Source of the DNA: a virus
Length of the DNA: 31,945 nt
Reading direction: 5' to 3' (one strand)
Virus record (IMG/VR): IMGVR_UViG_3300045806_000010
Location: 1 to 31,945 of that record
A program made the translations under genes and the position numbers. The notes under the pieces are model-generated. The model did no database searches. It had not been told where the DNA came from and saw only the letters and a program-made list of their open reading frames with translations. Within the stretch, counting starts at the first letter, position 1. Each line of letters begins with the position of its first letter. Below are positions 4,128 through 31,023 of this stretch, piece by piece.

Positions 4128-4907
4128 TTAGACGATGACGATAGAGGCTGCGACGCCGCATGGCTTCGGAAGCACGCCCGATTGTTCGACAATAGCGAGT
4201 TCAATATTGGTCAGCGGAAATTGGAACGTGTAGGCCATCGTCATGGCGTTGAGCGCTTCGCCAGAATAGAAAACAGCCTGACCAAACCCGAGGCAGGCGG
4301 GGTTTTCGTTAAACCCGAAATAAGGGCCTGAAACAGCCACATCAGCGACGTAGCAATTGCCACGATTCGGGAACAGCGCCATCAGTATTTGATTGATGCT
4401 CTTGATAGACCCATCCGAGATATTCGCCATTGCTTTGGCGAAAATCAGCGTCCGGAATGAATTGTCGCCAAGCTGATAGTTTGTCGTCAGTTGCTCGCCG
4501 GAATAGAACGGCGCCTGCCCGAACCCGACGACGCCGGGAACGGCTTGACCAAAACCAAACCATGTGGCGTTTGCAACATGCAGTGTGCGCGTGACGCCGA
4601 CGATGCGGCCCCAAACGTCAAGGCCATAGTCTTCGGCCGTCACGACGTTCATGATGAGATTATAGAATGCGTTGATATTGGCAGATTGATCAAGGCACGC
4701 CGAATAATTGCCGATCAGCTCCGTCAGGACCGGGCTGTTGGCATATTGGCTGATGATGGTCTGCCAATAGTCGAAGGGGACAATGTCGCCGTAAGACGGT
4801 GCTGTTTGCGACGGCGCGGGCGGGTAGTCTGGCCCCGTAGGGTTTACCGCGAGACCACCAATGGCAGACACGCCAATTTCAAAATCGCCAATATCGCCGC
4901 CCATCAT
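4128..4907 (-). CDS. DUF2612 baseplate protein (gpI-like position)
   Basis: I prefer the ATG at 4907 (reading MMGGDIGDFEIG) because AAGG lies just upstream; a GTG at 4913 is also in frame. About 259 residues. The segment LDVWGRIVGVTRTL followed by paired WFGFGQA and GFGQA-FYSGE motifs is typical of DUF2612 phage baseplate proteins, encoded immediately after gpJ and replacing P2 gpI. The role is probably closing or anchoring the baseplate to the fibres. An internal duplication is visible: GFGQAPFYSGEQL near residue 130 and GFGQAVFYSGEAL near residue 207. It starts 12 bases after the gpJ stop and is followed by the tail fibre gene. Confidence 0.78.
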   Translation of the reverse strand: MMGGDIGDFEIGVSAIGGLAVNPTGPDYPPAPSQTAPSYGDIVPFDYWQTIISQYANSPVLTELIGNYSACLDQSANINAFYNLIMNVVTAEDYGLDVWGRIVGVTRTLHVANATWFGFGQAVPGVVGFGQAPFYSGEQLTTNYQLGDNSFRTLIFAKAMANISDGSIKSINQILMALFPNRGNCYVADVAVSGPYFGFNENPACLGFGQAVFYSGEALNAMTMAYTFQFPLTNIELAIVEQSGVLPKPCGVAASIVIV

Positions 4908-4919
4908 GGACACCTTCCA

Positions 4920-6350
4920 TTAAGCGAGAGAAACCGCGATATTTGCCGAGTTGATCGACGGGACTTGATTGATATTGGACTGGATTTTGAACAGCGTGGG
5001 TGAGACCGCATAAATTGTCTCAAGCGCCACGGTCTGCGATGCGCTGACGGTATAGGTTCCGGTCCCGCCATATCCTGATCCGAACGCGATGACCGTCGTT
5101 CCCGAGGAGACTATGCCGCCCGCATCGGTGATCAACTGCCCAACGGCAATCGTGCCGGAAGCGACGCTTGAGACATTCAGCGTCGTCCCTGAAATCGTGC
5201 CGGTAAACGTCGCGGACGGCGTGTTGATGGACCCGATCTGGATAGAGACGATTTGCGCCCACGATCCAAGCGCGGCGATAGGCGCATAATAGCGGCTTGC
5301 CAGAACCTCCGACCCGATGCGTGCGCGCGTCCCTCCGTCGCCGCCAGCGAAAGCGTTGATGACCGCCGATTGAATCAGCGACGCTGCGTTAGATGGGACT
5401 GCGGCCGAAGTTGCGATGGCGACCGCAAAGAAAATCTGCAAGTCGTTCGGAATTTCAAACGAGACGGGATAACTCGGGTAGGGCGGGGAATAGACCGCGC
5501 TTGTATCGTAGACCGTCACTGTCGTGTTGCCGTTATAGGCGCATCCAGGCGCTTTCTTGGTCCAGATCGCCTGAGCGACCGCCGCCGCATTTCCCCCGAC
5601 AACTGCGACATAAAGGCTGTTCGGGTTGAGCGAGACGCCACCGATGGTTTGCGCCGTGGCCGATGTGTTTTCGGTCACATAGGCGTCGAGAACTCCGGAC
5701 ACGGAAAGCACAGCGCCAAGGACGGAGGGGATTGATCCGTTTGAATTCTGCGCGACAGACGCGGCCCTGCGCGCCTCGAACGCAGACGTGGTTTCGACCG
5801 CATTACCGATTGTGCCGCCTTCGCAGGTGACGCTATCCCATCCCGGAATAGATTGATAAATCGACACGGATGTGGACGACGGAATAGGGACTGCGCCCGT
5901 CACCGTGCACGCAAAGGAAAGCGTGATCGACCCGCTTGACGGGATCGTTCCGGCGCCGGTGCAGGCGTAATTATTTCCCGATGAATCCTGAATAAGCTGG
6001 TTGACGGGAATGGTGACGCCGGCAAGCCCCATGCACGAAATTTGCAGCACGGTCGATTGCGCCGGGTTGCGCTCGATGAAATAGATGCGCGCCAAGGCGT
6101 CCTGGTTCCGGCCCTCCGCATAGGCCGGGTCGAACTGGCTCGCCATGTAAAGAAAGGTGTCGTTCACGTTGCCGACGATGGCCGTCAGACTGGACGCAAG
6201 CTGGCCCTGCGGCTCTGTCAATGCAAGATTGAGATCGCCGCCAAAAGCAGTATTTTGGTCAGCCTGGACGCCGGTTAAAATATCGAGTTCCGCCGGCGCC
6301 TGAAAGCCCGTTGCGGCCCATGCGACTTGCGGTACATTGGTTGAAGCCAT
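4920..6350 (-). CDS. Baseplate J-like protein (wedge component, 476 aa)
   Basis: ATG at 6350 lies one base after the stop of the HNH gene. The product resembles Baseplate_J family wedge proteins: an N-terminal region with DILTGVQADQNTAFG and YFIERNPAQSTVLQI, a central Gly/Ser-rich beta region, SAFEARRAASVAQNSNGS followed by VSGVLDAYVTEN (a conserved gpJ segment), and a C-terminal LFKIQSNINQVPSINSANI strand region. Residues about 380-445 are an extra Gly/Thr-rich module ending GGTGTYTV, seen also in three other virion proteins here, placed just before the C-terminal strands. It should be a baseplate wedge subunit next to gp25. The family call is strong. Confidence 0.85.
   Translation of the reverse strand: MASTNVPQVAWAATGFQAPAELDILTGVQADQNTAFGGDLNLALTEPQGQLASSLTAIVGNVNDTFLYMASQFDPAYAEGRNQDALARIYFIERNPAQSTVLQISCMGLAGVTIPVNQLIQDSSGNNYACTGAGTIPSSGSITLSFACTVTGAVPIPSSTSVSIYQSIPGWDSVTCEGGTIGNAVETTSAFEARRAASVAQNSNGSIPSVLGAVLSVSGVLDAYVTENTSATAQTIGGVSLNPNSLYVAVVGGNAAAVAQAIWTKKAPGCAYNGNTTVTVYDTSAVYSPPYPSYPVSFEIPNDLQIFFAVAIATSAAVPSNAASLIQSAVINAFAGGDGGTRARIGSEVLASRYYAPIAALGSWAQIVSIQIGSINTPSATFTGTISGTTLNVSSVASGTIAVGQLITDAGGIVSSGTTVIAFGSGYGGTGTYTVSASQTVALETIYAVSPTLFKIQSNINQVPSINSANIAVSLA
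5016..5213 (-). repeat. Dispersed Gly/Thr domain, copy in gpJ-like protein
   Basis: Codons for about 66 residues (approximately 380-445 of the gpJ-like protein). The pattern is: F-x-G-x-I-S-G-x-x-L-x-V, S-G-x-I-x-V-G-Q, S-S-G-T-x-V-I, then GGTGTYTVSASQTV. The same order of motifs appears at 15063-15479, 16341-16535 and 20758-21165. It interrupts the otherwise normal C-terminal part of gpJ and looks like a separate beta domain inserted in frame. Confidence 0.7.
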
Positions 6351-6351
6351 G

Positions 6352-6783
6352 TCAGTTTCCCTTCGACCAACGCTTGCCGTTTAATATCAATGTTATCGCT
6401 GGTCGAGAAACGCCGTATTCTTTTGCGAGAATGACATGTGCGCCCCTCTCACCTGAAAACTTAGCTCTTATTTCCATGACTTCATTTGCGCTCAGTTTTG
6501 CGCGCCCATGTTTTTCACCGGAATCCCCACGCCCACGCTCGATTTTATCGCGGATATTATCGGCCTGCGTCCCGATGAGAAGGTGTCCTGGATTCACGCA
6601 TCGCGGGTTATCGCATTTGTGGCGAGCAACTAGATTTGCGATGTCTGAGAGGCTTGCTCCATTATAATCGCAATACGCGATCCTATGTGCATATTCGCGT
6701 CGGCCGCCTATTGTGACCCGGCCATATCCATCGGCACGCCTAGGCCCAGTCCAGAGCGCGCAATCATCCCTAGAAACCTGCAC
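6352..6783 (-). CDS. HNH homing-type endonuclease with C-terminal helix-turn-helix
   Basis: A GTG at 6783 is the only reasonable start: the frame is closed by a stop two codons upstream. The gene overlaps the 3' end of the gp25 gene by 14 bases. The first ~80 residues are an HNH_3-type nuclease: CALWTG, GYGRV, AHRIAY, then the zinc/active-site block RHKCDNPRCVNPGHLLIGT and DNIRDKIERGR. Residues about 95-140 (KLSANEVMEIRAKFSG, EYGVSRPAITLILNGKRW) form a helix-turn-helix of the NUMOD type used by homing endonucleases for target recognition. A free-standing homing endonuclease inserted between two baseplate genes is the best explanation. Its target site is unknown. Confidence 0.88.
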   Translation of the reverse strand: MQVSRDDCALWTGPRRADGYGRVTIGGRREYAHRIAYCDYNGASLSDIANLVARHKCDNPRCVNPGHLLIGTQADNIRDKIERGRGDSGEKHGRAKLSANEVMEIRAKFSGERGAHVILAKEYGVSRPAITLILNGKRWSKGN

Positions 6784-7120: not shown

Positions 7121-7642
7121 CTATTTGACCCTTGCAAATTCGCCAAATTTTAGTTTGGCGGCAGTTTCGTATGCTGCGCCAGCAAGTTCGGGTGCGTCAA
7201 AACGGCCTAAATTCAGATAAGACCCATTGGGCTCACGAATGCGAGCGACCCATTTTCTATTTATTTTGTCCCAGCTAACGCCCTTAAATTTGGATTTATT
7301 ATTAGACCTTATCCGAGTATTCCTCGAATTTTCTCTCTGAGACGCCGGTCTCAGATTTGAAATTCTATTGTCTAATGGGTTGCCGTTCTTATGATCGATG
7401 CCGTCTGGAGGAAATTCACCGTAGATAATTAGCCACGATAGGCGATATGACAGATATAACCTCCCATCAATTCTAATGACGCGCCTATACCCACATTCTC
7501 TCTTAAAGAATTGATTGCACCCGGCAGGCGACCCGGTCGCGACACCCCCACGGCCAACTTTCCATTTAAAATTGCCGGTTTCTGGGTTGTAATCCAGCAA
7601 TTGCCGCGCACGGCTCGCGGTGATAAGTTCTCGTTTAGCCAT
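7121..7642 (-). CDS. HNH-AP2 homing endonuclease (173 aa)
   Basis: The ATG at 7642 (MAKRELITASRARQLLDY) is preferred over the GTG at 7693 because an AAGGA lies about ten bases upstream and the family usually starts here. Residues about 20-60 contain the usual GNFKWKVGRGG strand. The HNH nuclease core follows: DGIDHKNGNPLDNRISNLRP, with the conserved D-H-x-N-G-x-x-x-D-N-R-x-x-N-L-R pattern. The C-terminal part (FKGVSWDKINRKWVARI, LGRFDAPELAGAAYETAA) is an AP2/ERF-type DNA-binding domain. The coding sequence looks richer in A and T than neighbouring tail genes, a sign of separate origin. It sits between spike and gp25 and has its own promoter. Confidence 0.92.
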   Translation of the reverse strand: MAKRELITASRARQLLDYNPETGNFKWKVGRGGVATGSPAGCNQFFKRECGYRRVIRIDGRLYLSYRLSWLIIYGEFPPDGIDHKNGNPLDNRISNLRPASQRENSRNTRIRSNNKSKFKGVSWDKINRKWVARIREPNGSYLNLGRFDAPELAGAAYETAAKLKFGEFARVK

Positions 7643-7705
7643 CGTTCCGGTTCCTTCGGGCTGGTGGTTAGGGGCCGCTTGGTGGTGGAACACCTTGCGG
7701 TCCCG

Positions 7706-7745: not shown

Positions 7746-8354
7746 TTAAGTCCCCGCGTCTGGAACCGGGCCGCCGGCGTGTTTGTGCTGCTGGAGCGTG
7801 ACCGCGTCGCCGCCGCCGAAGCCCGCCGTGATCTTGCCCGTAACGGTCAGGTCGCCGGTGATATTGACGGCCGGAGCGCCCACGATATGCACGCCAGTTT
7901 CGTCGAAGGTGACGCTTTGGGATGGCGTCCCGTTCATGTTGCCGAACCCGCCGAGATAGACGCCATCGGCCAGGTCATGCTGGCGGCGCGAACCGGGGTT
8001 GGCTTGCCCCGCGCTGGCCTTGACCGCCGATATGTCGCGGTCGCTGATCGCCATCAGGCCCTGATCTCCGACCTTCGGCTTGACGACGACGCTGCCATTG
8101 CCGCCGGATGATCCTGAAACCGGGATGCCATGGACAACGCCGTGCGCCGTCGAGTTGCCGGCGCCGTCCACCTGGTTGACGAGCGGCTGAACCGAAACGA
8201 TGAAATTCGGGCTTGTGCCGGTGACGGAGACGATTTTGACCGGAGTGGCGGTGCGGACCTTGGCGAGCCTGCGGTCAATGTGGAAATCGTGGCGGTTGAA
8301 GTCCGAGTTGGACGAGGTGAGGCCGCGTTGTCCGGCTGAGGATTGGTCCGTCAT
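7746..8354 (-). CDS. Baseplate spike protein (gpV / Gp138-like, 202 aa)
   Basis: The ATG at 8354 overlaps the stop of the hub gene (ATGA), so I take MTDQSSAGQRGL as the start. The protein reads as a central membrane-piercing spike: an OB-fold-like N-terminal domain (ATPVKIVSVTGTSPNFIVSVQPLVNQVD; VKPKVGDQGLMAISDRDISAVK), then HDLADGVYLGG, then short beta-helix-like repeats (VTFDETGVHIVG, VNITGDLTVTGKITA). It ends in a His-containing tip (LQQHKHAGG) like the metal-binding apex of gpV-type spikes. It acts at the centre of the baseplate below the hub. The family is well supported; metal binding is inference. Confidence 0.85.
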   Translation of the reverse strand: MTDQSSAGQRGLTSSNSDFNRHDFHIDRRLAKVRTATPVKIVSVTGTSPNFIVSVQPLVNQVDGAGNSTAHGVVHGIPVSGSSGGNGSVVVKPKVGDQGLMAISDRDISAVKASAGQANPGSRRQHDLADGVYLGGFGNMNGTPSQSVTFDETGVHIVGAPAVNITGDLTVTGKITAGFGGGDAVTLQQHKHAGGPVPDAGT

Positions 8355-9217
8355 GGCGCATCGCTCCCCTGGATTGGCGACGCGCTGAGAATGGTGAACC
8401 ATTTCCCGTGCGGAATTTCGCTCTCAAGCTCATGGTCGAGATGAAAAATCGTCCAGTCACCGCAAGCCGGCGTCAGGTCGCTCTTGATCGTCACTTTCCC
8501 GCCCGGCTGGAACGTCGGGTTATAGATGGTTTCGACAATGACGGCGGCTTGATTGAACGCCGGATAGCCGACCATGCCCGTAGCTGGTGAAATAAGAGGG
8601 GTTGAACCCTTGCGCGGCTGGCCTGGTTTCCAGATCGCCAGCGTCCCCTTGTCGATGACGTGTTCAATCCCGGCGTGTTGCGCGAGGGACAGGATTTGAT
8701 TACGCACCGATCCCGCAAGATAGGGATTGGCGATCTTGACGTTGACGCCGTTGTTTTCGAACGTGAGGCCGTTGGCCTGCGCGATCTGCCCCATGATGGT
8801 CGCAACATCGCCGGCGCCTTGAACGCTTGTCGGAGGGGATGCCTTCACGGCGAGATCGCCGCCCGCGACCGCTTCGACCCGGAAACAGACATTCGGCTGT
8901 GATTTGGCGTCAACCCATGCGTAGGAGATGTTGCCGACGAACGCGGTGGACATGCCGTTGATGTCGTCGCCGGCCTGCACCGTAACCTTGTTCTTGCTGA
9001 TGTAATTGATCTGCTTCCCGACCGTCGAAAGCTGGTTCATCATCGACAATTCCATGCCGAAGATCGCCATTTGCAATTGGCCCATCGACGCGCCGCCCGC
9101 GTTGGTGATATGGGCGGAAATGCGCAGGCCCGACAAAGTCGCTTTATTGCCGCCGCCTGCAAAATTTCCGTTCTGCATATCGAACGAAACTGTGATTTTG
9201 CGGTTCGTGAAGGACAT
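8351..9217 (-). CDS. Baseplate hub protein (288 aa)
   Basis: ATG at 9217. The start MSFTNRKITVSFDMQNGNFA and the segments LSGLRISAHITNAGG, LQMAIFGMELSMMNQLSTVG and DLTPACGDWTIFHLDHELES match baseplate hub proteins of DUF3383-type myoviruses (functionally like T4 gp27 / Mu gp44). The product should form the trimeric hub that joins tube and spike. The gene order plug, hub, spike agrees, and its stop overlaps the spike start. The gene is separated from the plug gene by an antisense membrane-protein gene, so its transcription from upstream must cross that insert unless a separate promoter exists; I see none. Confidence 0.82.
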   Translation of the reverse strand: MSFTNRKITVSFDMQNGNFAGGGNKATLSGLRISAHITNAGGASMGQLQMAIFGMELSMMNQLSTVGKQINYISKNKVTVQAGDDINGMSTAFVGNISYAWVDAKSQPNVCFRVEAVAGGDLAVKASPPTSVQGAGDVATIMGQIAQANGLTFENNGVNVKIANPYLAGSVRNQILSLAQHAGIEHVIDKGTLAIWKPGQPRKGSTPLISPATGMVGYPAFNQAAVIVETIYNPTFQPGGKVTIKSDLTPACGDWTIFHLDHELESEIPHGKWFTILSASPIQGSDAP

Positions 9218-9230
9218 ATGCGCTGCCGCC

Positions 9231-9259
9231 TTGTCGCCAATGGACTGGGCGACTATGAT
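9231..9259 (+). promoter_or_regulatory. Sigma-70-like promoter for the plus-strand moron gene
   Basis: TTGTCG (9231-9236), a 17-base spacer and TATGAT (9254-9259) lie about 30 bases upstream of the ATG at 9290 on the plus strand, with a GGGAGA ribosome-binding site between. The -35 overlaps the region just upstream of the hub gene start on the other strand, so the two divergent genes share this short interval. Confidence 0.65.
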
Positions 9260-9289
9260 CCCGCCCTAATTTTTAACGGGAGAGATAGG

Positions 9290-9715
9290 ATGATCGCCGC
9301 CCTTTTGATTTTGCTTGTTCTCGCGGTCTTGTTTCCGGGATTTCTCCGCGCGCTGTTCGCCATCATCGCGATTTGCGCTGTCGCCTTTTTCTTGAATTTG
9401 CAATCTTCGTCGGATCGCCCCGCATCGGAAACCCGGCAGGAATCGCAAAACCAAGATGCTCAAGTTGTCGGACCGACACATGAACCCGCATCGGTGGATG
9501 GATGCTGGTCTATCGCAGATCGCAAAATGAAGGCCGATTGCTACGCCGGGAAGCCTACCTATTCAAAAGCCGCGCCGCCGTCCCCTAACTCAGAAACGCC
9601 ACAGGCGAGACCCGAACCCGATTTCTGCAAAACTCCGACTGGCATCGTAAATATGAAATGCTCGGACATTGCCGCATGGGGGATGGCCGCCGAGCGCGAA
9701 AGCAAATCGCGCTAA
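9290..9715 (+). CDS. Putative moron: small membrane protein with Cys-rich exported tail
   Basis: This is the only convincing plus-strand gene in the window. ATG at 9290 follows GGGAGA and a good promoter. The 141-residue product starts MIAALLILLVLAVLFPGFLRALFAIIAICAVAFFLN-type hydrophobic sequence, giving one or two membrane segments within residues 2-38. The remaining ~100 residues are polar, with four cysteines in GCWSIAD, KADCYAG, DFCKTPTG and NMKCSDIA, probably outside the cytoplasm and able to form disulfides. I do not recognise a named family. Its stop overlaps the stop of the convergent plug gene. Position and independent promoter suggest a moron (cargo gene expressed from the prophage), perhaps altering the host envelope. 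The role is inference. Confidence 0.75.
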   Translation: MIAALLILLVLAVLFPGFLRALFAIIAICAVAFFLNLQSSSDRPASETRQESQNQDAQVVGPTHEPASVDGCWSIADRKMKADCYAGKPTYSKAAPPSPNSETPQARPEPDFCKTPTGIVNMKCSDIAAWGMAAERESKSR

Positions 9716-10017
9716 GCCAGTTCAGACGCCGCCCAATAGGTCAGCAAATAGCGAGTCCCGATGCCCGTATAAACCGGGTCGGTGCTCCCTTGCGTATCGA
9801 CAAAGGCGATGTCGCCCGAAAACCCGAGATAGGCGCTGCGCACAATCAGACAAAGGTTCTTGGCCGGAACGCCGGCGATGACGATCGCGTTGTCAATGTA
9901 GAGATCGACAAAAACGCCGTAAAACCTCTGATAGACGTTGATCTGGCAGTTTTGGCCGCCAAGTTGGACAGTCACGAATTGCGACGGAACGGCCTTTAGC
10001 GGGATGATTACCGACAT
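9712..10017 (-). CDS. Baseplate plug protein (101 aa)
   Basis: The ATG at 10017 (MSVIIPLKAVPSQFVTVQLG) is the natural start; the open frame extends further upstream, but that part overlaps the preceding gene and is arginine-rich shadow. The sequence fits the small phage baseplate plug family: QFVTVQLGGQNCQINVYQR, VDLYIDN, LIVRSAYLGFSGDIAFVD, TDPVYTGIGTRYLLTY. These proteins sit between tube end and hub in contractile phages. It follows the preceding baseplate gene after seven bases. Full length for the family. Confidence 0.82.
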   Translation of the reverse strand: MSVIIPLKAVPSQFVTVQLGGQNCQINVYQRFYGVFVDLYIDNAIVIAGVPAKNLCLIVRSAYLGFSGDIAFVDTQGSTDPVYTGIGTRYLLTYWAASELA

Positions 10018-14000: not shown

Positions 14001-15992
14001 TTATTCAACGTCAAGGCTATTCAGTGTCAGCTTGTGAATGCTTCCGCCGTCACAATACCAGAAATAAATAACCGGGCTTGTTCTTGCCTGACGCACCTGC
14101 GGCGTGGCTGGAATGACAAGGAAATACCATCCGCGCTGCGAAATGACCTGAGCCGGCGTAGTAAGCCCACCCGCTTCGGTGGTGATTTCCAGAATTTGCG
14201 TCGAAGAGAGCGTCACGCCCGGCTGGATGGCGCCGAACAAAAGCGCCTGCTGGATGGTCGTCAAGCATGTGGCTTCGATCATCGCATATCCCGTGTAATT
14301 ATACGGGATCGATCCAATCGAGGTCAGGAGATTGACCAGCGCCAGCTGAAGAGAGTTGTTGAGCCAGATCTGGTTGGCGTAGGTGTTTGCCCATTGGAAC
14401 ACGCCAGAAACGCCGCCCTCGGCAAAATAGACGAAGTTGGCGTTGGCTGTCGCGTAGGCGCCCACGAAGTTATAGCCATTGGCCGTCAGATTTGCGGCGG
14501 TTCCAGAATTGGTGACGCCGGCGACAAGGCCGGATTGGGTTTTGAACTTGTGAGTGATATTGCCGTTCGGTGCGGAATAGTTGACAGAGGCGATCATGCC
14601 GGAAACGAACACGTCATGGTTCAAATCGGTCGGGCTGTAAATCAACTCAGTCCCGTTATAGTTGGCCTGAGTGAGCAGATAGCCAAACGAGGCAGGCGCC
14701 GAACTGCTGAGCGTCGGCGCGATGTCGGAATCTCGGGCGACATAAAGATAACGGTCATTGGTTGTGTTGACCCACGCCGAGAACAATAGCTTTTGCGCGC
14801 CGCCCGCTACGCCATCGTCCGGGTCGAAGTCGAAGAAGAAGCTCGCCCAATTCTGCGTGATCGCCGTAAGGCCCGCCATAAAGACGCCGGGAGAGAGCGC
14901 GGCCGAACCCTGCGACAGAACGGCGCCGGTGGCTGTGGTCAGGAATAGCGACCCCGAAAGCGTTCCCGTAGCGGCGGCGATGGTAGACGCTGATCCGGTA
15001 ATGCCGGAAATGATGATGATGCCGCCCGAAACGCTGTCATAAGCCACGGTGCAGTTGGTGGCAGAAGCGGTCAACGTGCCGGTGCCGGAAGCGGTCTGCG
15101 TCAGATTGACTACATAGGTTCCGATCCCGCCAGACGTGCCGGTCAACTGCGCCATGATCTGCGAACCAGCCGTGACGGAGGTTCCGGTCAATGTCTGGCC
15201 CGGCGAAAGCGTGCCGGTGGACACGGCAGTCGAAACCGTCAGCAGGCCCCACGATTCGGTGATCGTGATCGAAGTCGCAATCGCGTGCGCAATCGAAACA
15301 GCATAAGTACCAACGCCGCCCAGCGCGCCACCATTCGCTGTCGATGTGAGCTGAGCGACGATCTGCGTTCCCGCCGTGATGCCGGAACCTGTGATGACGC
15401 CGCCGATTTCAATCGTTCCGGACGTGGTGCCGGTGACGGTCAAAACGTCGTTATCGATGGTCCCGGCGAAGATAGCGGCCGTGCCTGCGGCAATCGACCA
15501 GTTGGTCGTCAAAACCGTCGCCTCTACCGGCTCCGTGGTGTTCAATGCGGTCTGGATCAATCCGGCCGCCGCCGAATAGGACGTGGCGGCCAGCAGATTG
15601 AGCGTCGCCGCGCTGTGCAGATATCCGTCGATGGTGACATAAAGCGAGCCGCTCAATCCCTGGATATTGGCGACACTGAGGGAGCCGAAGCCGGAACCGC
15701 CGCGCATCCATGCCGCAACGGCGGTCTGGGGATATTGCGCAGCTAGAAGCGCGGCCGGCGTAGCCGTGGCGCCCGTATAGCCGGCGAAATAGACTTGCGC
15801 CTTGGCGTATTGCGTCGAGGACAGCCCGAAGTAAGACCCGACCGTCGCCGCATTGGGGAATGACTGCACCGTGTTGATCGGAATACGCGAATTCTGCGTG
15901 AGCATCAGCCCATTGAGATTGAGGGCGGCGCCGCCCGCGCTGATGACGCCGGGGAGAACTTGAACGTCATATGAGGCCGGAATGGTGCTCAA
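14001..15992 (-). CDS. Contractile tail sheath protein, DUF3383 type (663 aa)
   Basis: A TTG at 15992 with AAAGGAT about nine bases upstream starts MSTIPASYDVQVLPGVISAG. The N-terminal ~170 residues (LMLTQNSRIPI, VGSYFGLSS, YAKAQVYFAGYTGA) and C-terminal ~280 residues (WASFFFDFDPDD, DRYLYVARDSDIAPTL, EGGVSGVFQWANTYANQIWLNNSLQLALVNLL) are the DUF3383 sheath family. Residues about 172-310 are two extra Gly/Thr-rich modules ending GGVGTYAV and GGIGTYVV, which lengthen the protein beyond usual sheaths of this family. They probably face the outside of the tail, since they interrupt the fold in a sheath region that often varies between phages. The sheath call is strong; the location of the insert is inference. 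Confidence 0.87.
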   Translation of the reverse strand: MSTIPASYDVQVLPGVISAGGAALNLNGLMLTQNSRIPINTVQSFPNAATVGSYFGLSSTQYAKAQVYFAGYTGATATPAALLAAQYPQTAVAAWMRGGSGFGSLSVANIQGLSGSLYVTIDGYLHSAATLNLLAATSYSAAAGLIQTALNTTEPVEATVLTTNWSIAAGTAAIFAGTIDNDVLTVTGTTSGTIEIGGVITGSGITAGTQIVAQLTSTANGGALGGVGTYAVSIAHAIATSITITESWGLLTVSTAVSTGTLSPGQTLTGTSVTAGSQIMAQLTGTSGGIGTYVVNLTQTASGTGTLTASATNCTVAYDSVSGGIIIISGITGSASTIAAATGTLSGSLFLTTATGAVLSQGSAALSPGVFMAGLTAITQNWASFFFDFDPDDGVAGGAQKLLFSAWVNTTNDRYLYVARDSDIAPTLSSSAPASFGYLLTQANYNGTELIYSPTDLNHDVFVSGMIASVNYSAPNGNITHKFKTQSGLVAGVTNSGTAANLTANGYNFVGAYATANANFVYFAEGGVSGVFQWANTYANQIWLNNSLQLALVNLLTSIGSIPYNYTGYAMIEATCLTTIQQALLFGAIQPGVTLSSTQILEITTEAGGLTTPAQVISQRGWYFLVIPATPQVRQARTSPVIYFWYCDGGSIHKLTLNSLDVE
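15063..15479 (-). repeat. Dispersed Gly/Thr domain, two tandem copies in sheath
   Basis: Sheath residues about 172-245 (AIFAGTIDNDVLTVTG to GGVGTYAV) and 246-310 (GLLTVSTAVSTGTLSPGQTL, TAGSQIMAQLTGT, GGIGTYVV) are two copies of the same module. They share the order L-x-V, S-G-T-L-x-x-G, G-T/S-x-I-x-A-Q-L-T, G-G-x-G-T-Y. The two differ enough to be an old duplication. Confidence 0.8.
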
Positions 15993-16016: not shown

Positions 16017-16736
16017 TTAGCCAGAGAAGCCGTAAAGTTCGGCCTCAAGTTCAGTTGCGAATTGTTGACCCAGGACGGTCACAGTTTGATTGATTTGCAA
16101 AACAGCATTGATGACCCATCGGGTTTCAATCTGATCTTCCGCATTGACAAACGGGACTTGCTTCGGGTCGTCCGCGTAAAGCGGGGAGACTGAGTTGTTC
16201 AACCCAGCAAACTGCCACGCCGCATAGTTATCGCGGAACAGCGTCGAGATGGTTTGCGCATAGTCCGCGCTGAGAGGCCCATGAACGTCGATCTGGAACG
16301 TCTGCTGTGTCGGCTGCATCATGTTGGCAAATCCGGAATAGATCGGCCCTGACGCGACGCTCTGCGCATTGTTGACGGTATAGGTTCCGGCGCCTCCCGA
16401 CCCTGTGCCAAGCGCGGTGATGACCGTGTTCAACGAAATGTTGGCGCCATAAACTGGCGACCCGGCTTGTAGCGAGGAATTCGTCGGAGCGGCGGTGATC
16501 GTCAGCGTCTGCCCGCTGATCGCGCCCGTATAGGCCGCGTCCACATAAGCGTCGATGTTGGTGGATATGCGATTGCGCAAGATCGGCGTGAATACGACGA
16601 AGTTCGCGCCTTCCGGCTCAGGAACCCGGTTTTGCTGTCCAAGAAGGACTTCTATTCCCGTTGGCAGGATCGAAATCAGAAAAGATCGCAGTGCGGCCTG
16701 AATGGCGCTCTGGTTCGGCGTGATCGAGACAGGCAT
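16017..16736 (-). CDS. Neck/tail terminator protein with inserted Gly/Thr domain (239 aa)
   Basis: The ATG at 16736 (MPVSITPNQSAIQAALRSFL) overlaps the stop of the preceding gene (TGATG). Residues 1-65 (LPTGIEVLLGQQNRVPEPEGANFVVFTPILR) and 133-239 (TQQTFQIDVHGPLSADYAQTIST, DDPKQVPFVNAEDQIETRW) together form a compact family of phage neck or tail-terminator proteins encoded just before the sheath. Residues about 68-132 are an extra module (YTGAISGQTLTIT to GGAGTYTVNNAQSV) that splits that domain. The protein probably joins the connector to the tail. Assignment to the terminator role follows from position and family style. Confidence 0.72.
   Translation of the reverse strand: MPVSITPNQSAIQAALRSFLISILPTGIEVLLGQQNRVPEPEGANFVVFTPILRNRISTNIDAYVDAAYTGAISGQTLTITAAPTNSSLQAGSPVYGANISLNTVITALGTGSGGAGTYTVNNAQSVASGPIYSGFANMMQPTQQTFQIDVHGPLSADYAQTISTLFRDNYAAWQFAGLNNSVSPLYADDPKQVPFVNAEDQIETRWVINAVLQINQTVTVLGQQFATELEAELYGFSG
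16341..16535 (-). repeat. Dispersed Gly/Thr domain, copy in neck protein
   Basis: Residues about 68-132 of the neck protein: YTGAISGQTLTIT, LQAGSPVYG, NTVITALGTG, then GGAGTYTVNNAQSVASGPIY. The final segment is very like the gpJ copy (GGTGTYTVSASQTVALETIY). It interrupts an otherwise continuous domain. Confidence 0.75.
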
Positions 16737-17110
16737 CAGGCATTGTCCTGAAGGACAACGCCAACGCTGCACCAATCCGGGAAATATTCAAAAACGATCA
16801 CGACTTTCCACACGGAACCATCGGGAAGCGTAAAAAGATCGCCGCCTTTTCCCTCCGACCGGATCATGCCGTCCACTTCTCCGGTGATATAGATACGCCG
16901 CTTTTCCCCCTGGATTTGCAGGCCGTCCATCTGGACGATCTCGTTATAGGCTAGCGGCTGGACTTGTCCATGAACAGTGACTGGATTGGCGTAGGATGGC
17001 GCGCGGGTTCCGTCCGGGGCGGTCGCGTAGCCGGTGGAAACTCTGAGAATGAGTTCGGTTTTCGGGTTGATCGCGCCAATTGCGCCGGAGACAATCCCAT
17101 GTAGATTCAT
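16736..17110 (-). CDS. Head-tail connector / tail completion protein (124 aa)
   Basis: ATG at 17110 overlaps the stop of the upstream gene (TGATG), and its own stop overlaps the next start, so it is tightly coupled. The 124-residue product (LILRVSTGYATAPDGTRAPSY, PVTVHGQVQPLAYNEIVQMDGLQ, EKRRIYITGEVDGMIRSEGKGG, VIVFEYFPDWCSVGVVLQ) looks like the small beta proteins of the head-tail joining module. No enzyme motif. It lies between the gp10-like protein and the neck protein, so a connector or stopper role is likely, though the specific counterpart is not certain. Confidence 0.72.
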   Translation of the reverse strand: MNLHGIVSGAIGAINPKTELILRVSTGYATAPDGTRAPSYANPVTVHGQVQPLAYNEIVQMDGLQIQGEKRRIYITGEVDGMIRSEGKGGDLFTLPDGSVWKVVIVFEYFPDWCSVGVVLQDNA

Positions 17111-20679: not shown

Positions 20680-21627
20680 TTAGTAGGCCGTGCCGACGAT
20701 CTTGACGAGTTCGCCGGCGAGTCCGGAAGAGGCCGCAACCCATCCGGTCTGCACGTTGGTGGCGGCGGTGATGGTGCCGCTGGACGCCGTGGCCGTCAGG
20801 GTGATGTAAGTGCCCGCGCCGCCCGCGCCGGTCAGCGATGCGCCGTTGGAGGCATTGGCGAGGATGGACGACCCGGCTGCAACCGAGGTGCCGGACAGAG
20901 TATCGCCAATCGAGAATGTGCCTGTGACGGTGCCGCCAAGGGTCAGAAGGCCATAGCCGCCGCCGATGGCGGTTCCCGAGGCCACGATCTGTTCGGCCGT
21001 GGTCAGCGCATAGGTGCCAACGCCTCCCGTGGTGCCGGTCAACTGCGAGGCAATCGAGCCGGTAGCATTGGAAGTCAGCACCGCGCCGGGATACAGCGTG
21101 CCGGACGTGACCAACGCGACCGTGAGGATGTTTCCGTTGACCGACCCGACCACAGCAAAGGTCTGCGCGGAAATCGAGAACGTGGTCGATGTCGCCGTCG
21201 AAGCCGCGCCAGCAGCCGCGAAGGAGATCGCGCCGTTGGCGTAGGACGCATAGGCGTACTGACCGGGGAGCGCCTGCGTCGTCCCCTCATTCTTGGCGAA
21301 TATGCCGCCACCGTTGAGAACGGCGGTCGGGAAGCCGGCAGGGATGACCATGCTCGATTCCGCGAGATAGGCGGTGATCAGCGCCTGCTGCTGGCGATGG
21401 ATGATGCCGGCCGGAACGCCCGTGCCGTAGTTGTTCACAGCGGCGGGGGCGCCGTTGGCGTCGGCGGTTGAATAGGACAACCACACAGCGCGGCCGATGG
21501 TGGCGCCGGACGTGCCTGCGACAAGGCCAGCGGCGCCCGCGTCAACGAACGAGCGCGGGTTGCCGTCGCTGAAGTCGCCCCACACGCCAATGGCGGGCTG
21601 GATCTGGACAGAATTCGGAAAAGGCAT
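20680..21627 (-). CDS. Capsid decoration / structural cement protein (315 aa)
   Basis: ATG at 21627 with AGGAG seven bases upstream. Residues 1-135 (QPAIGVWGDFSDGNPRSFVDAG, AVWLSY, VPAGIIHRQQQALITAYLAESSMVIPAG, GGIFAKNEG) are the structural cement / gp24-type decoration domain, a small protein that coats the capsid. The rest is two Gly/Thr-rich modules (residues about 155-220 and 223-290) with GGVGTYAL and GGAGTYIT motifs, of the kind also found in sheath, neck and baseplate proteins. Usual cement proteins end near residue 150, so this one carries a large extra outer part. Confidence 0.8.
   Translation of the reverse strand: MPFPNSVQIQPAIGVWGDFSDGNPRSFVDAGAAGLVAGTSGATIGRAVWLSYSTADANGAPAAVNNYGTGVPAGIIHRQQQALITAYLAESSMVIPAGFPTAVLNGGGIFAKNEGTTQALPGQYAYASYANGAISFAAAGAASTATSTTFSISAQTFAVVGSVNGNILTVALVTSGTLYPGAVLTSNATGSIASQLTGTTGGVGTYALTTAEQIVASGTAIGGGYGLLTLGGTVTGTFSIGDTLSGTSVAAGSSILANASNGASLTGAGGAGTYITLTATASSGTITAATNVQTGWVAASSGLAGELVKIVGTAY
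20758..21165 (-). repeat. Dispersed Gly/Thr domain, two copies in decoration protein
   Basis: Residues about 155-220 (FAVVGSVNGNILTVALVTSGTL to GGVGTYALTTAEQIVASGT) and 223-290 (GLLTLGGTVTGTFSIGDTLSGTSVAAGSSI to GGAGTYITLTAT). The second copy has the GLLT start of the second sheath copy (GLLTVSTAVSTGTL), suggesting that modules were exchanged as pairs. Confidence 0.8.
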
Positions 21628-28028: not shown

Positions 28029-28572
28029 TCAATTCCTCCAAAGTTCTGGATGATCTTTAACCGGCGCCGATGATTCTAAGAGACCGGCGAGGAGATGGAA
28101 TCTTCCAAACCTCGCGCGATAACCAAGAATCTTGACGTGACCAAGAGTGATTCCCCATCACTGTTGAAACAGCGGAATCGCAGTGGCGGCGGGTGCGGAC
28201 CGCTTAAGGCGGCCGCCCCGCCTAGCGGTGGGCTTTCGCTGCTGGATGAAGATTGCTGGCTTGACTCAGTCTCAGTGGCCCGATCGGGAATTCAGAATGC
28301 CGGGCGCGAAACGTTGAGTGCTTCGCACAGGAGATTCATCATTTTTACGTACTGTCAAGGTCGCCCCGCAGAAAAATCCCCGGTTTTTACCCGTTTTCCA
28401 CCGCCATTCGCCTTGTTTTTCTAAGGCTGCAACTTTTTTTGATCCCGCCGCTTTTTCATGCCCGTTTTCGGTCGATTTTGCTTGACGGATTTTCGGGTCT
28501 TTCCGTTTTCAGGGGTGATTTGTCGCCGATGTCACGGATGTCACGGGAAATGTCACATTTTTGGATTTTATG
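28029..28572. other. Intergenic region upstream of packaging operon
   Basis: No convincing gene in about 540 bases. It holds a long imperfect palindrome (28199-28229), A/T runs around 28340-28470 and four GTGACAT motifs near 28529-28576. A TTGACA on the minus strand (28358-28353) has no good -10 partner. One minus frame is open from 28508 to 28272 but is lysine-rich and has no ATG or GTG start. Control signals for the late operon would be expected here, but I cannot point to a clear promoter. Confidence 0.5.
28199..28229. repeat. Inverted repeat with 12-bp stem
   Basis: ACCGCTTAAGGCGG pairs with CCGCCTAGCGGT: twelve base pairs with a two-base bulge and a five-base loop (CCGCC). No T-run follows on either strand, so it is not a standard intrinsic terminator. 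It may be a protein-binding site or an RNA structure. Confidence 0.55.
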
Positions 28573-28576
28573 TCAC
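28529..28576 (-). repeat. Cluster of four GTGACAT repeats
   Basis: On the plus strand ATGTCAC starts at 28529, 28538, 28550 and 28570; the minus strand reads GTGACAT. Two more copies, on the plus strand, lie at 31826 and 31847 inside the partial gene at the right edge. Four copies within 48 bases is far above chance. Confidence 0.6.
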
Positions 28577-28707
28577 ATCGTTGTTTTTATTTGTGTTTCA
28601 GCCATACCCGATTTATAGGCGATCACCCGCCCTTCGAGGGCCGAAACAATCTTCCCTTCCGCCTCCAGCCCCTTCAGCGCCCGTTGCAGGGCCGGCGCAT
28701 TTTTCGG
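28573..28707 (-). pseudogene. 3' remnant of a gene cut by the ISL3 element
   Basis: Just beyond the transposase stop the minus frame continues as a protein-like stretch of about 44 residues ending in TGA at 28573: NAPALQRALKGLEAEGKIVS, then ALEGRVIAYKSG. The L-x-x-A-L-x-x-L-E-x-E-G-K-I pattern is typical of the last helix and wing of a winged helix-turn-helix. There is no start codon before it, so it is a truncated end of a gene whose 5' part would lie to the right of the element. Confidence 0.5.
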
Positions 28708-30180
28708 CTATCCGTTTTTTAAGTGGGAAATGACATGAGCGCCGCTTCTCTCAAGCCAGCGCGCGAAGGTGGAAACGCGCCTGCACTTCGGGCAAAGCGC
28801 CAACCGGCGCTCCGGACCGCCGTCGAGCGAAAAGCTGGGCGAAAGCTGCTTCAAGCCAGCGTCGAATTTCCCGAGGCAGCTTTCGCAGGCGAAAACGCCC
28901 CGCGCCTCGGTGGCCTTTTTCGCCGCGGCTTTCGCTTCGCGCTTGGCCTTCCGGGTGTCGCCGATCGGGACCATCCTCAAGGCTTTCGCGCGTATGTTCT
29001 TGTAGGTGTAGCCACGCCCACCACGATTGACCATCTTGATAAGCCCGTTGATCGCTTCGGTCAGCGCGTTGGTATAGCGATGATCGAAGTAAGCGAAAAC
29101 TTCATCGTGCCAATAGTCTATGGTAGCAGCAACGGAGTCAAATTCTACCTTTACGCTTTCCGGAATGCATTTACGCCATTCATCGAAAAGCCTTTCGGCT
29201 TCTTCTCTGTTTTTGGCGTCCCAGATGTCGTAAAAGCTTTCCTTCGTGTGCCAGGCGTCGGACAGCAGCGGGTTGTTCTTGAAGAGGCCATCGAGCAAGA
29301 GGATGGTCGTCGGCTTGTGCTTCTTCCGGCTCTGTTGGAGGACGCGGCGAAGGCGCCAAGGGTCTTTCTCCTTGCGGGTCTTGGGCTTTACGCCTTTGCG
29401 TTCAAGCTCCTCCTGAATCCGCTTCTTCTCCTTTTCGGCCTCAATCTTCCTGTGGCGGCTGCGGACGTGGTCCAGGGCGTCGTTTGCCTTCTTCTGGGTA
29501 TGCCATCGGTCCACGACGATGACGGCCCCAGGCAGCTTGCGCTTGACGATCTGGCGGTATTGGTCGCGCATGTCCTGCGTGACGACCCTGACGTTTTCCT
29601 TGTTGCGCATCAGGAAAAGCCACGTTTCGATGGTGTCCGTGTCGCAGTTTTTCCGGATGTCAAGCGTCTGCTTGGTCAGCACGTCGATGGCGATGAACCT
29701 CAGTTCGCCGTCCAAAGTCAGTTCGTCGATGCCAAGGACCTCGGGAGCGACCGGATGGATGGCATGGTCGGTCTTCCGGTATTCCTCGTTGCAGATGAAC
29801 CGGATGACGCTTTCGTCAATGCCAGTTTCCCGGCTCATTTCGGCGTAGTTCCGACGAAGGCATTGTTCGCGAAGGTGATCGACGACGCGGTTGGTCAGTT
29901 GCCGCGTCGGATGCATGTCAGGAAGGGGCTGCGTGGAGGTTCTGTTGCATTCCCGGCATCTGAAACGCTTCACGGAAACCTTGATAAAAGTCCGCTTCGC
30001 GAGGATGGGGATGTCTCGGTATTCAACGTCCCTGGGGCCGTGGCTGTAGAGCCGGCCGACGACGCCGCAGTGCGGGCAATGATCTGGCAGGACGGTGTAT
30101 TCCGCCGGAATCGTCGCCGTCTCGCCTTCAATGATAGGCTCCCCGGTTTTCCAGTTGGGGAGCCAGAGGTAGTTCTTCAT
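28708..30180 (-). CDS. ISL3-family transposase (490 aa)
   Basis: ATG at 30180. N-terminal zinc ribbon: Cys35 and Cys38 (CPHCG), Cys75 and Cys78 (CREC). A helix-turn-helix follows (residues about 95-132, LRRNYAEMSRETGIDESVIR). The DDE catalytic domain has Asp152 (LGIDELTLDG), Asp224 (VVDRWH) and Glu375 (NALTEAINGLIK), with a charged helical insertion (KIEAEKEKKRIQEELERKG) between the last two. All key residues are present and the frame is intact, so the enzyme is probably active. A C-terminal extension with CESC and CPKC looks like a second zinc ribbon, which is less usual for the family. Confidence 0.95.
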   Translation of the reverse strand: MKNYLWLPNWKTGEPIIEGETATIPAEYTVLPDHCPHCGVVGRLYSHGPRDVEYRDIPILAKRTFIKVSVKRFRCRECNRTSTQPLPDMHPTRQLTNRVVDHLREQCLRRNYAEMSRETGIDESVIRFICNEEYRKTDHAIHPVAPEVLGIDELTLDGELRFIAIDVLTKQTLDIRKNCDTDTIETWLFLMRNKENVRVVTQDMRDQYRQIVKRKLPGAVIVVDRWHTQKKANDALDHVRSRHRKIEAEKEKKRIQEELERKGVKPKTRKEKDPWRLRRVLQQSRKKHKPTTILLLDGLFKNNPLLSDAWHTKESFYDIWDAKNREEAERLFDEWRKCIPESVKVEFDSVAATIDYWHDEVFAYFDHRYTNALTEAINGLIKMVNRGGRGYTYKNIRAKALRMVPIGDTRKAKREAKAAAKKATEARGVFACESCLGKFDAGLKQLSPSFSLDGGPERRLALCPKCRRVSTFARWLERSGAHVISHLKNG

Positions 30181-30215: not shown

Positions 30216-30238
30216 CGGGTTAATGGGTGGAGTCTCAT
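30216..30238 (-). pseudogene. Possible 5' remnant of the gene cut by ISL3
   Basis: An ATG at 30238 overlaps the methyltransferase stop (ATGA) and reads MRLHPLTR before running into the right end of the element and a stop. The same coupled arrangement occurs at many junctions here, so this is probably the start of the gene whose 3' end survives at 28573-28707. Only about eight codons remain, so the link is tentative. Confidence 0.35.
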
Positions 30239-31023
30239 GCTGCAGCCCCGCCCAGTGGCAATATCGACGAAAGCCTAGCGTCTGCTTTATCAGCCATTTC
30301 GGCGTCAATCTCGCACCCGATGTAATTGCGGCCAGCCATCAGGCAGGCTTCACCAGCGGCGCCAGAGCCGGCGAAAAAGTCCCCAACCAAGCCGTCAGGT
30401 GGGCAGCTTGTCCTGATGAGAATTTCCAAGAGCGGAGAAGGCTTTTCGGTCGGATGAATAGCGCGGCCATGCATCGAGTGCATGAAGATGACCGACCGCA
30501 TGATTCTCGGCCCACCGTCCTCAGACGTATAATGGCCGGCATCGATGTTCCCTGTATGGGAAGGACGGCGTTTTCGTCGAATGGCTTTGGCTGTCGCATC
30601 TGGCGTCGTCTGGACGGCATTGAAGACACCTCCCCATGGTGCGCCAGCCCGGTAGAACTGGACGGCGAGTTCGTGGACACGTTTGAACCGGTCGGCGTGG
30701 AATCCGCTGCCGTTGTGCTTCTCCCAAACGATCTCTTGAGCGTATTTCCAGCCTGCGGCACCAAATCGAGAGCCGGTCTCCATAAAAAACCGGGCGGACC
30801 CGAAAACCCACATCGATCCGGTCGGCTTTACGCAGCTCAGAGCGATTGTCTCCCACCCTTCAACAATTCGATCCCAAGCCAGAGACGTATCTCCGTAAGG
30901 CGGGTCGGCGATGATCATGTCGAAGGGCCCGTGCGGCGGAAGGATTTGGCGGCTGTCGCCAGTCAAGATCATCGTCGTCATCGCCCCGCTTTCCACTGTA
31001 AAACACGGAATCGACCCTATCAT
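30235..31023 (-). CDS. Beta-class DNA methyltransferase (262 aa)
   Basis: ATG at 31023; an ATG at codon 15 (30981, MTTMILTGDSRQIL) has a better ribosome-binding region (GGAAAGCGGGG) and may be the true start. The catalytic motif DPPY (residues 40-43) precedes the cofactor motif FAGSG (217-221), the beta-class order of N4-cytosine or N6-adenine methyltransferases. HPTEKP (190-195) is also a hallmark. The target-recognition region is about residues 100-180. No restriction endonuclease is nearby, so it is an orphan phage methyltransferase that may protect phage DNA from host restriction or mark it for regulation. Base specificity cannot be told from the sequence. Confidence 0.9.
   Translation of the reverse strand: MIGSIPCFTVESGAMTTMILTGDSRQILPPHGPFDMIIADPPYGDTSLAWDRIVEGWETIALSCVKPTGSMWVFGSARFFMETGSRFGAAGWKYAQEIVWEKHNGSGFHADRFKRVHELAVQFYRAGAPWGGVFNAVQTTPDATAKAIRRKRRPSHTGNIDAGHYTSEDGGPRIMRSVIFMHSMHGRAIHPTEKPSPLLEILIRTSCPPDGLVGDFFAGSGAAGEACLMAGRNYIGCEIDAEMADKADARLSSILPLGGAAA

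Follow-up and report, generated by a model that had tools for sequence, protein, structure and literature searches.

Phages of the lineage described here have a slot in their late tail operon, between the genes for baseplate plug and hub, that has been refilled repeatedly, most often with an opposite-strand gene for a predicted exported protein. The occupant analysed here, P0001, is read as a lysogenic-conversion moron in this reused slot; by analogy with known systems, superinfection exclusion would be its likeliest job, a reading that we favour with modest confidence. What is new is the slot with its rule of orientation and export, a single orphan gene being ordinary. A literature search, which reached mostly papers open without subscription, found no description of a plug–hub cargo slot or of an opposite-strand exported cargo slot.

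P0001 lies in the IMG/VR viral contig IMGVR_UViG_3300045806_000010, a linear record of 31,945 bases that was analysed whole (the window). Profile matches identify a minus-strand tail operon encoding sheath, tail chaperone, tape measure, Dit-like protein, plug, hub, spike and wedges; one wedge is gpJ-like and another operon gene encodes what we take to be a gp25-like wedge. The tape measure contains a lysozyme-like domain (SLT_3, E = 2.2e-6). Searches of the window found no tRNA and no Rfam family, and no integrase was seen by eye among the ORFs of this 31.9-kb fragment. The features of the slot and its borders are:

8351-9217, minus strand: baseplate hub, E217 gp41 type, right border of the slot (PF22759, E = 5.2e-21; phrog_196, E = 1.2e-52)
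9231-9259, plus strand: promoter-like TTGTCG-17-TATGAT, also readable as CTTGTC-18-TATGAT (at chance level)
9278-9282, plus strand: Shine-Dalgarno-like GGGAG, 7 nt before the ATG (by eye)
9290-9715, plus strand: cargo (moron) gene P0001, 141 aa, opposite to the tail operon (ATG at 9290, TAA ending at 9715)
9293-9403, plus strand: putative membrane anchor, residues 2-38, two short hydrophobic stretches around FPGFLR (sequence reading)
9404-9712, plus strand: predicted periplasmic tail, polar and Pro-rich, with Cys 72, 84, 113 and 124 (sequence; topology inferred)
9712-9715, both strands: tail-to-tail overlap of 4 bp between the cargo stop TAA and the plug stop TAG (sequence)
9712-10017, minus strand: baseplate plug, Pam3 gp18 type, left border of the slot (PF22479, E = 6.1e-16; phrog_349)

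An earlier note, made from the letters of the window, had described a plus-strand moron between plug and hub, with a ribosome-binding site, one or two membrane segments, a cysteine-containing exported tail and a stop overlapping that of the plug gene. All of these are present as listed, export itself being a prediction. The anchor is modelled as a single helix (residues 2-41, pLDDT 79-90) and holds a fifth cysteine, Cys 29, inside the membrane part; the model of the exported tail is of low confidence (pLDDT ~40-50). The note had also given the gene its own promoter. The two hexamers exist, but such a site is no more frequent than chance (one found, 1.3 expected in shuffles), and when the upstream region is shuffled, 9% of the copies score as high as TTGTCG-17-TATGAT; a site at chance level was rejected as proof of the gene. 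Upstream of 22 cargo genes, sigma-70-like sites are barely better than in shuffles (mean best score 6.4 versus 5.8). A scan with a simple consensus found no terminator-like site on the plus strand just past 9715 in the stretch covered, and cargo transcription is expected to read through into the plug region; an own terminator is a usual feature of morons, not an obligatory one.

The window holds further insertions and modules. Two HNH endonuclease genes are inserted on the operon strand, one at the gp25–wedge junction (6352-6783, minus; HNH_3) and one at spike–gp25 (7121-7693, minus; HNH_3 and an AP2 domain); similar-looking HNH genes lie at spike–gp25 in the relatives L083, L090 and L095. A wedge (4920-6350, minus) and the enlarged sheath protein (14001-15992, minus) have a common Gly/Thr-rich module that matches phrog_21413 at positions ~396-468 (E = 1.2e-12 and 1e-4). 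By eye, the stretches 16017-16775 and 20680-21627 resemble it, and it is perhaps a decoration module spreading within virion proteins. An ISL3-family transposase with a zinc ribbon (28708-30180, minus), the nearest plasmid-borne relatives of which are only ~33% identical, adjoins a DNA methylase (30235-31023). Between the terminase side and this transposase (28042-28733) are two plus-strand ATG ORFs, 28095-28424 and 28458-28733, neither with codon-position bias. The description of P0001 as the only plus-strand gene of the window holds for convincing genes, these two ORFs being undecided.

Loci with a hub relative were gathered from viral contigs, bacterial genomes, cargo scans and whole-genome searches, and plug and hub were located in each by profile. 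Six of the 11 bacterial-genome loci (L020, L021, L024, L025, L026 and L027) were set aside, the genes upstream of the hub being ordered differently there. The 126 distinct hub loci comprise 79 in which plug and hub are adjacent (< 100 bp), 32 in which an insert of 100-5000 bp separates them, 11 with no plug in reach and four with the plug downstream. Adjacent pairs mostly have a 4-bp start/stop overlap, and an insert therefore breaks a coupled pair, as the earlier note had supposed of genes that are normally neighbours. The 494-bp insert of the window is itself not a product of chance, plug and hub adjoining in 79 of the 115 distinct loci where both could be located. Isolated phages agree: among 142 records with a hub, the five annotated records opened all have plug and hub without an insert (Klebsiella phage RCIP0114, Aeromonas phage 62AhydR11PP, Acinetobacter phage Ab69, Pseudomonas phage Amjad_SA and Pantoea phage PA-1). 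The gene is thus not conserved at this place in all relatives. Hub relatives are rare in bacteria (1 of 297 and 2 of 347 genomes). Two isolated phages, an Aeromonas phage (L165, 984-1426, minus) and an Acinetobacter phage (L166, 1572-1706, minus), have a small opposite-strand gene between the tape measure and the next tail gene, and no such opposite-strand gene at plug–hub.

The contents of the slot follow a rule. By an automatic criterion, 23 of the 32 insert loci have an opposite-strand ORF with a hydrophobic N-terminus; inspection by eye adds L002 and L060, making 25 of 32 with an opposite-strand gene for a predicted exported protein. One ORF rule was applied to five operon junctions, with loci of differing gene order (L078, L097, L102, L104 and L149) excluded except at plug–hub: on the opposite strand 32 ORFs are exported and four are not, compared with three and 19 on the operon strand. 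Some loci are near relatives (L125, L127-L129, L131 and L132) and not independent, and a cluster-level test was therefore used, in which loose linkage merges some unrelated proteins. By cluster, the opposite strand has 11 exported and the operon strand nine not exported; the exceptions are three opposite-strand clusters that are not exported and two operon-strand clusters that are (Fisher p = 0.005). As a control, of 451 opposite-strand ORFs that occur by accident within core genes, 37 have an exported-type N-terminus. The 32 exported opposite-strand proteins have 3.8 cysteines per 100 aa versus 0.8 in core genes, and 31 of them have at least two; they are mostly unrelated to one another, and those scanned have no curated-family match.

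These opposite-strand ORFs are real genes, under strong purifying selection wherever pairs of relatives permit the comparison. In the opposite-strand frame, dN/dS is 0.04-0.24 in nine of 11 pairs, all drawn from relatives and not from P0001; in the other two dS is saturated and the ratio is not computable (rows L039a and L129b, with wrongly set starts, were excluded). The overlap of cargo and plug stops is exactly 4 bp in 10 of the 23 loci listed, including L046 and L056, the cargo proteins of which are unrelated. Operon-strand inserts are of another kind: antirepressors (P22_AR_N in L002; AntA in L018, with an almost identical gene in L035) and, in L012 and L016, large tail-like proteins. Similar opposite-strand exported genes are found at the tape measure–Dit, Dit–plug and spike–gp25 junctions, the tape measure–Dit ORFs of L018, L019, L063 and L077 not being kept by the automatic rule. 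Plug–hub is the main slot of the operon, not the sole one.

The commonest family in the slot, family 1, comprises ten sequences (L004, L005, L022, L023, L038, L048, L049, L050, L052 and L120) with the anchor pattern LLI.I...FPRL.RF.... All but L050 have a Cys domain that is predicted to be all-helical (pLDDT 90-96 over most of it). Exported parts are exchangeable behind a shared anchor. L050 and L052 are 86% identical in the anchor and 97% in the hub but only 23% in the exported part: one exported domain has been exchanged for another where the anchor ends. The Cys domain of family 1 recurs in L037 behind an ordinary signal peptide, different from the family-1 anchor, and L039 has a 62-aa gene (4444-4632, minus) that encodes nothing but a family-1-type anchor and follows a separate exported gene, as if the anchor–exported fusion of other loci had been split in two. 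A scan of viral sequences with family 1 gave nine loci, all nine at plug–hub. L022 comes from Rhizobium rhizogenes, and in the family of that host two of 297 genomes have a family-1 copy. One is L022 itself, at the plug–hub slot; the other, G125, adjoins another exported gene in a region that resembles a prophage and includes a gene identified by eye as endolysin-like. No free-standing chromosomal family-1 gene was found among these 297 genomes. Seven members (L004, L005, L023, L049, L050, L052 and L120) have a common leader that contains CATCTTG, exactly or nearly so, ~40 nt ahead of the start codon, followed by GCGCA..TTT, and that has no obvious Shine-Dalgarno; it could belong to a leaderless transcript or be an operator. 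It is not claimed as a promoter, its bases being those of the hub leader on the other strand.

P0001 has no close kin in the collections searched. No relative was confirmed in viral contigs (25 stretches matched), and none was found in phage records or plasmids. Pfam, PHROGs, NCBIfam, PADLOC and PDB sequences gave no credible match to P0001, and the PDB search likewise none to the family-1 profile; hits to DUF4131 (E = 0.0014, below its cut-off), hrcV (E = 0.016), phrog_9343 (E = 0.02) and CcoH (E = 0.29) were judged to be generic membrane hits. Fold searches, for which the P0001 model is too poor to serve, gave nothing either: Foldseek returned no match at E ≤ 0.001, and the best VIA-align score (Z = 6.2) is to unrelated helical proteins. 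The ten cargo proteins scanned against PADLOC defence families had no credible match, the sole one being a weak hit of L046 to a restriction enzyme model (E = 0.0084). The anchor nevertheless gives P0001 a place. The profile of the ten family-1 anchors scores it at 19.7 bits and the L039 anchor gene at 18.5, compared with 12.6 for the best of 300 domain-shuffled copies. Its exported tail has 9-17% identity to family-1 tails and does not match them. By these scores P0001 is a member of the anchor group with a tail of its own.

As a whole, these phages are largely temperate. Of viral records with an insert, 11 of 20 encode a tyrosine integrase (PF00589), as do six of 13 without one at plug–hub, so that the integrase does not separate the two groups; the insert-bearing L022 sits in an 806-kb bacterial contig. 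Together with the usual content of the inserts, this supports the lysogenic cargo pattern that the earlier note had proposed, which was essentially right in kind apart from the weight laid on the promoter.

The closest parallel is the ant moron, or immunity I region, of P22, which lies between genes 16 and 9 and comprises mnt, arc, ant and sieA. According to the epsilon34 paper (PMC2629481) this insert likewise varies in length, occupies one fixed position within the late morphogenesis operon and is missing in some relatives, and it includes an inner-membrane superinfection exclusion protein and an antirepressor, a class also found in this slot (L002, L018). The slot thus works like the ant moron, with variable contents, a fixed place, antirepressors and a membrane protein. 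Unlike P22, the phages here have contractile tails and the junction is plug–hub, whereas the P22 insert precedes the tailspike gene; an insert in this lineage usually consists of one exported gene, unrelated in sequence to the P22 moron as far as tested. The same source notes that P22-like phages have morons at one place only of the morphogenetic cluster, and asks why (PMC2629481). The lineage described here is a second, independent case of fixed-place morons, with several places.

Three individual proteins invite comparison. SieA of P22 is a small prophage inner-membrane protein (162-164 aa, similar in length to P0001) that blocks DNA delivery (PMC10883804). It has three predicted transmembrane segments and the motif FxRYPxEAxxFNK; P0001 has an N-terminal anchor only and lacks the motif, and was rejected as a member of the SieA family. 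T4 Spackle (gp61.3) is described as a small exported helical bundle with a disulfide that inhibits the tail lysozyme (PMC7677548). The Cys domain of family 1, all-helical by prediction, resembles this description, and lysozyme-like tape-measure domains are present here too, but no sequence match to Spackle was found for P0001 or the family-1 profile, and no fold match in the searches, for which the P0001 model was too poor. T4 makes Spackle early in lytic infection, and most of the proteins here have no relation to one another. Tab of Pseudomonas phage JBD26 is a small orphan moron within a late operon, between two structural/packaging genes, and a prophage-encoded defence (PMC10884400). By that account it acts inside the cell on virion assembly, whereas the proteins here are predicted to be exported and lie on the opposite strand.

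Superinfection exclusion, the reading that we favour, would work as follows. P0001 would be anchored in the inner membrane with its cysteine tail, possibly disulfide-bonded, in the periplasm. It would be expressed from the prophage, because the gene faces away from the late promoter. The altered envelope would then block DNA delivery by related phages, the target being perhaps the incoming tail tip, the tape-measure/lysozyme complex or a host factor used by the phage. What was observed is the insertion, its orientation, the predicted export pattern, purifying selection in relatives and modular swapping. As to the target, the tape measures of 11 of 14 relatives have a lysozyme-like domain of the PF18013 type; with the domain in the window, a target of this kind therefore exists (SLT_3 itself was matched in one of 33 relatives, below cut-off). 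The cargo does not simply track the lysozyme, because the close family-1 genes L023 and L049 accompany different tape-measure ends, and inhibition of tail lysozyme as a general cargo function is suggestive only.

The strongest competitor, a lysogenic-conversion cargo with another purpose, would supply a secreted or envelope factor of use to the host bacterium in stress, surface properties, competition or host association. The exported parts are many and mostly unrelated (the 11 opposite-strand exported clusters), none of the ten proteins scanned matches a defence model, and the L056 and L039 proteins resemble general secreted proteins and not one tool. However, the tail-tip neighbourhood and the antirepressor-bearing slot resemble the P22 exclusion and immunity locus, and family 1 is nearly absent from bacterial genomes outside phage (its two copies in 297 genomes being at the slot or in a prophage-like stretch). 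We regard host benefit as a serious but rather unlikely alternative.

An insert that mainly tunes late transcription, lowering hub expression through convergent transcription or the broken overlap with the protein secondary, would fit the loss of the 4-bp plug–hub coupling and the overlapping stops, which leave no room for a terminator. It is very unlikely, given the strong selection on protein sequence, the consistent export signal and cysteines, and the 79 loci that do without an insert. A lysis or virion accessory protein (spanin-like, holin-like or part of the tail tip) would suit the position among baseplate genes and the membrane anchor and helical exported domain of family 1, but the gene lies on the strand opposite the late operon and is missing in most relatives, and L050 and L052 have unrelated exported parts despite near-identical hubs, so we give this little credence. 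The case for P0001 from the window alone is weak: an ATG ORF of at least 141 codons arises in 94 of 2000 dinucleotide-shuffled copies of the insert, the codon bias is weak (score 0.055), and viral contigs, phages and plasmids gave no homologue. An accidental ORF in a degenerate or non-coding insert is nevertheless highly improbable, because the first 31 residues of P0001 beat all 300 domain-shuffled copies against the family-1 anchor profile and the gene has the strand and 4-bp stop overlap of the relatives' coding genes, with similar start spacing.

Superinfection exclusion by P0001 can be extended to a bolder proposal, which we put forward as speculative and on balance doubtful: that the lineage has dedicated opposite-strand envelope slots, chiefly plug–hub but also tape measure–Dit, Dit–plug and spike–gp25, in which a constant anchor or signal peptide is combined with exchangeable Cys-rich periplasmic domains, these being specificity modules matched to the tail tip or tail lysozyme of competing sister phages. 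If true, a modular prophage-encoded exclusion system would adjoin the very tail genes that define its targets. A simple rule of position, by which the gene lies on the opposite strand after the plug gene and encodes an exported, cysteine-rich protein, singles out about a dozen small envelope proteins without a name from prophages of Rhizobium, Methylobacterium and their relatives. If these cargo proteins exclude phages, recognition of incoming contractile tails would be directly testable, and natural domain swaps such as that between L050 and L052 would be ready-made experiments. The shared slot suggests a docking place for genes that alter the envelope of the cell in which the virus lies dormant.
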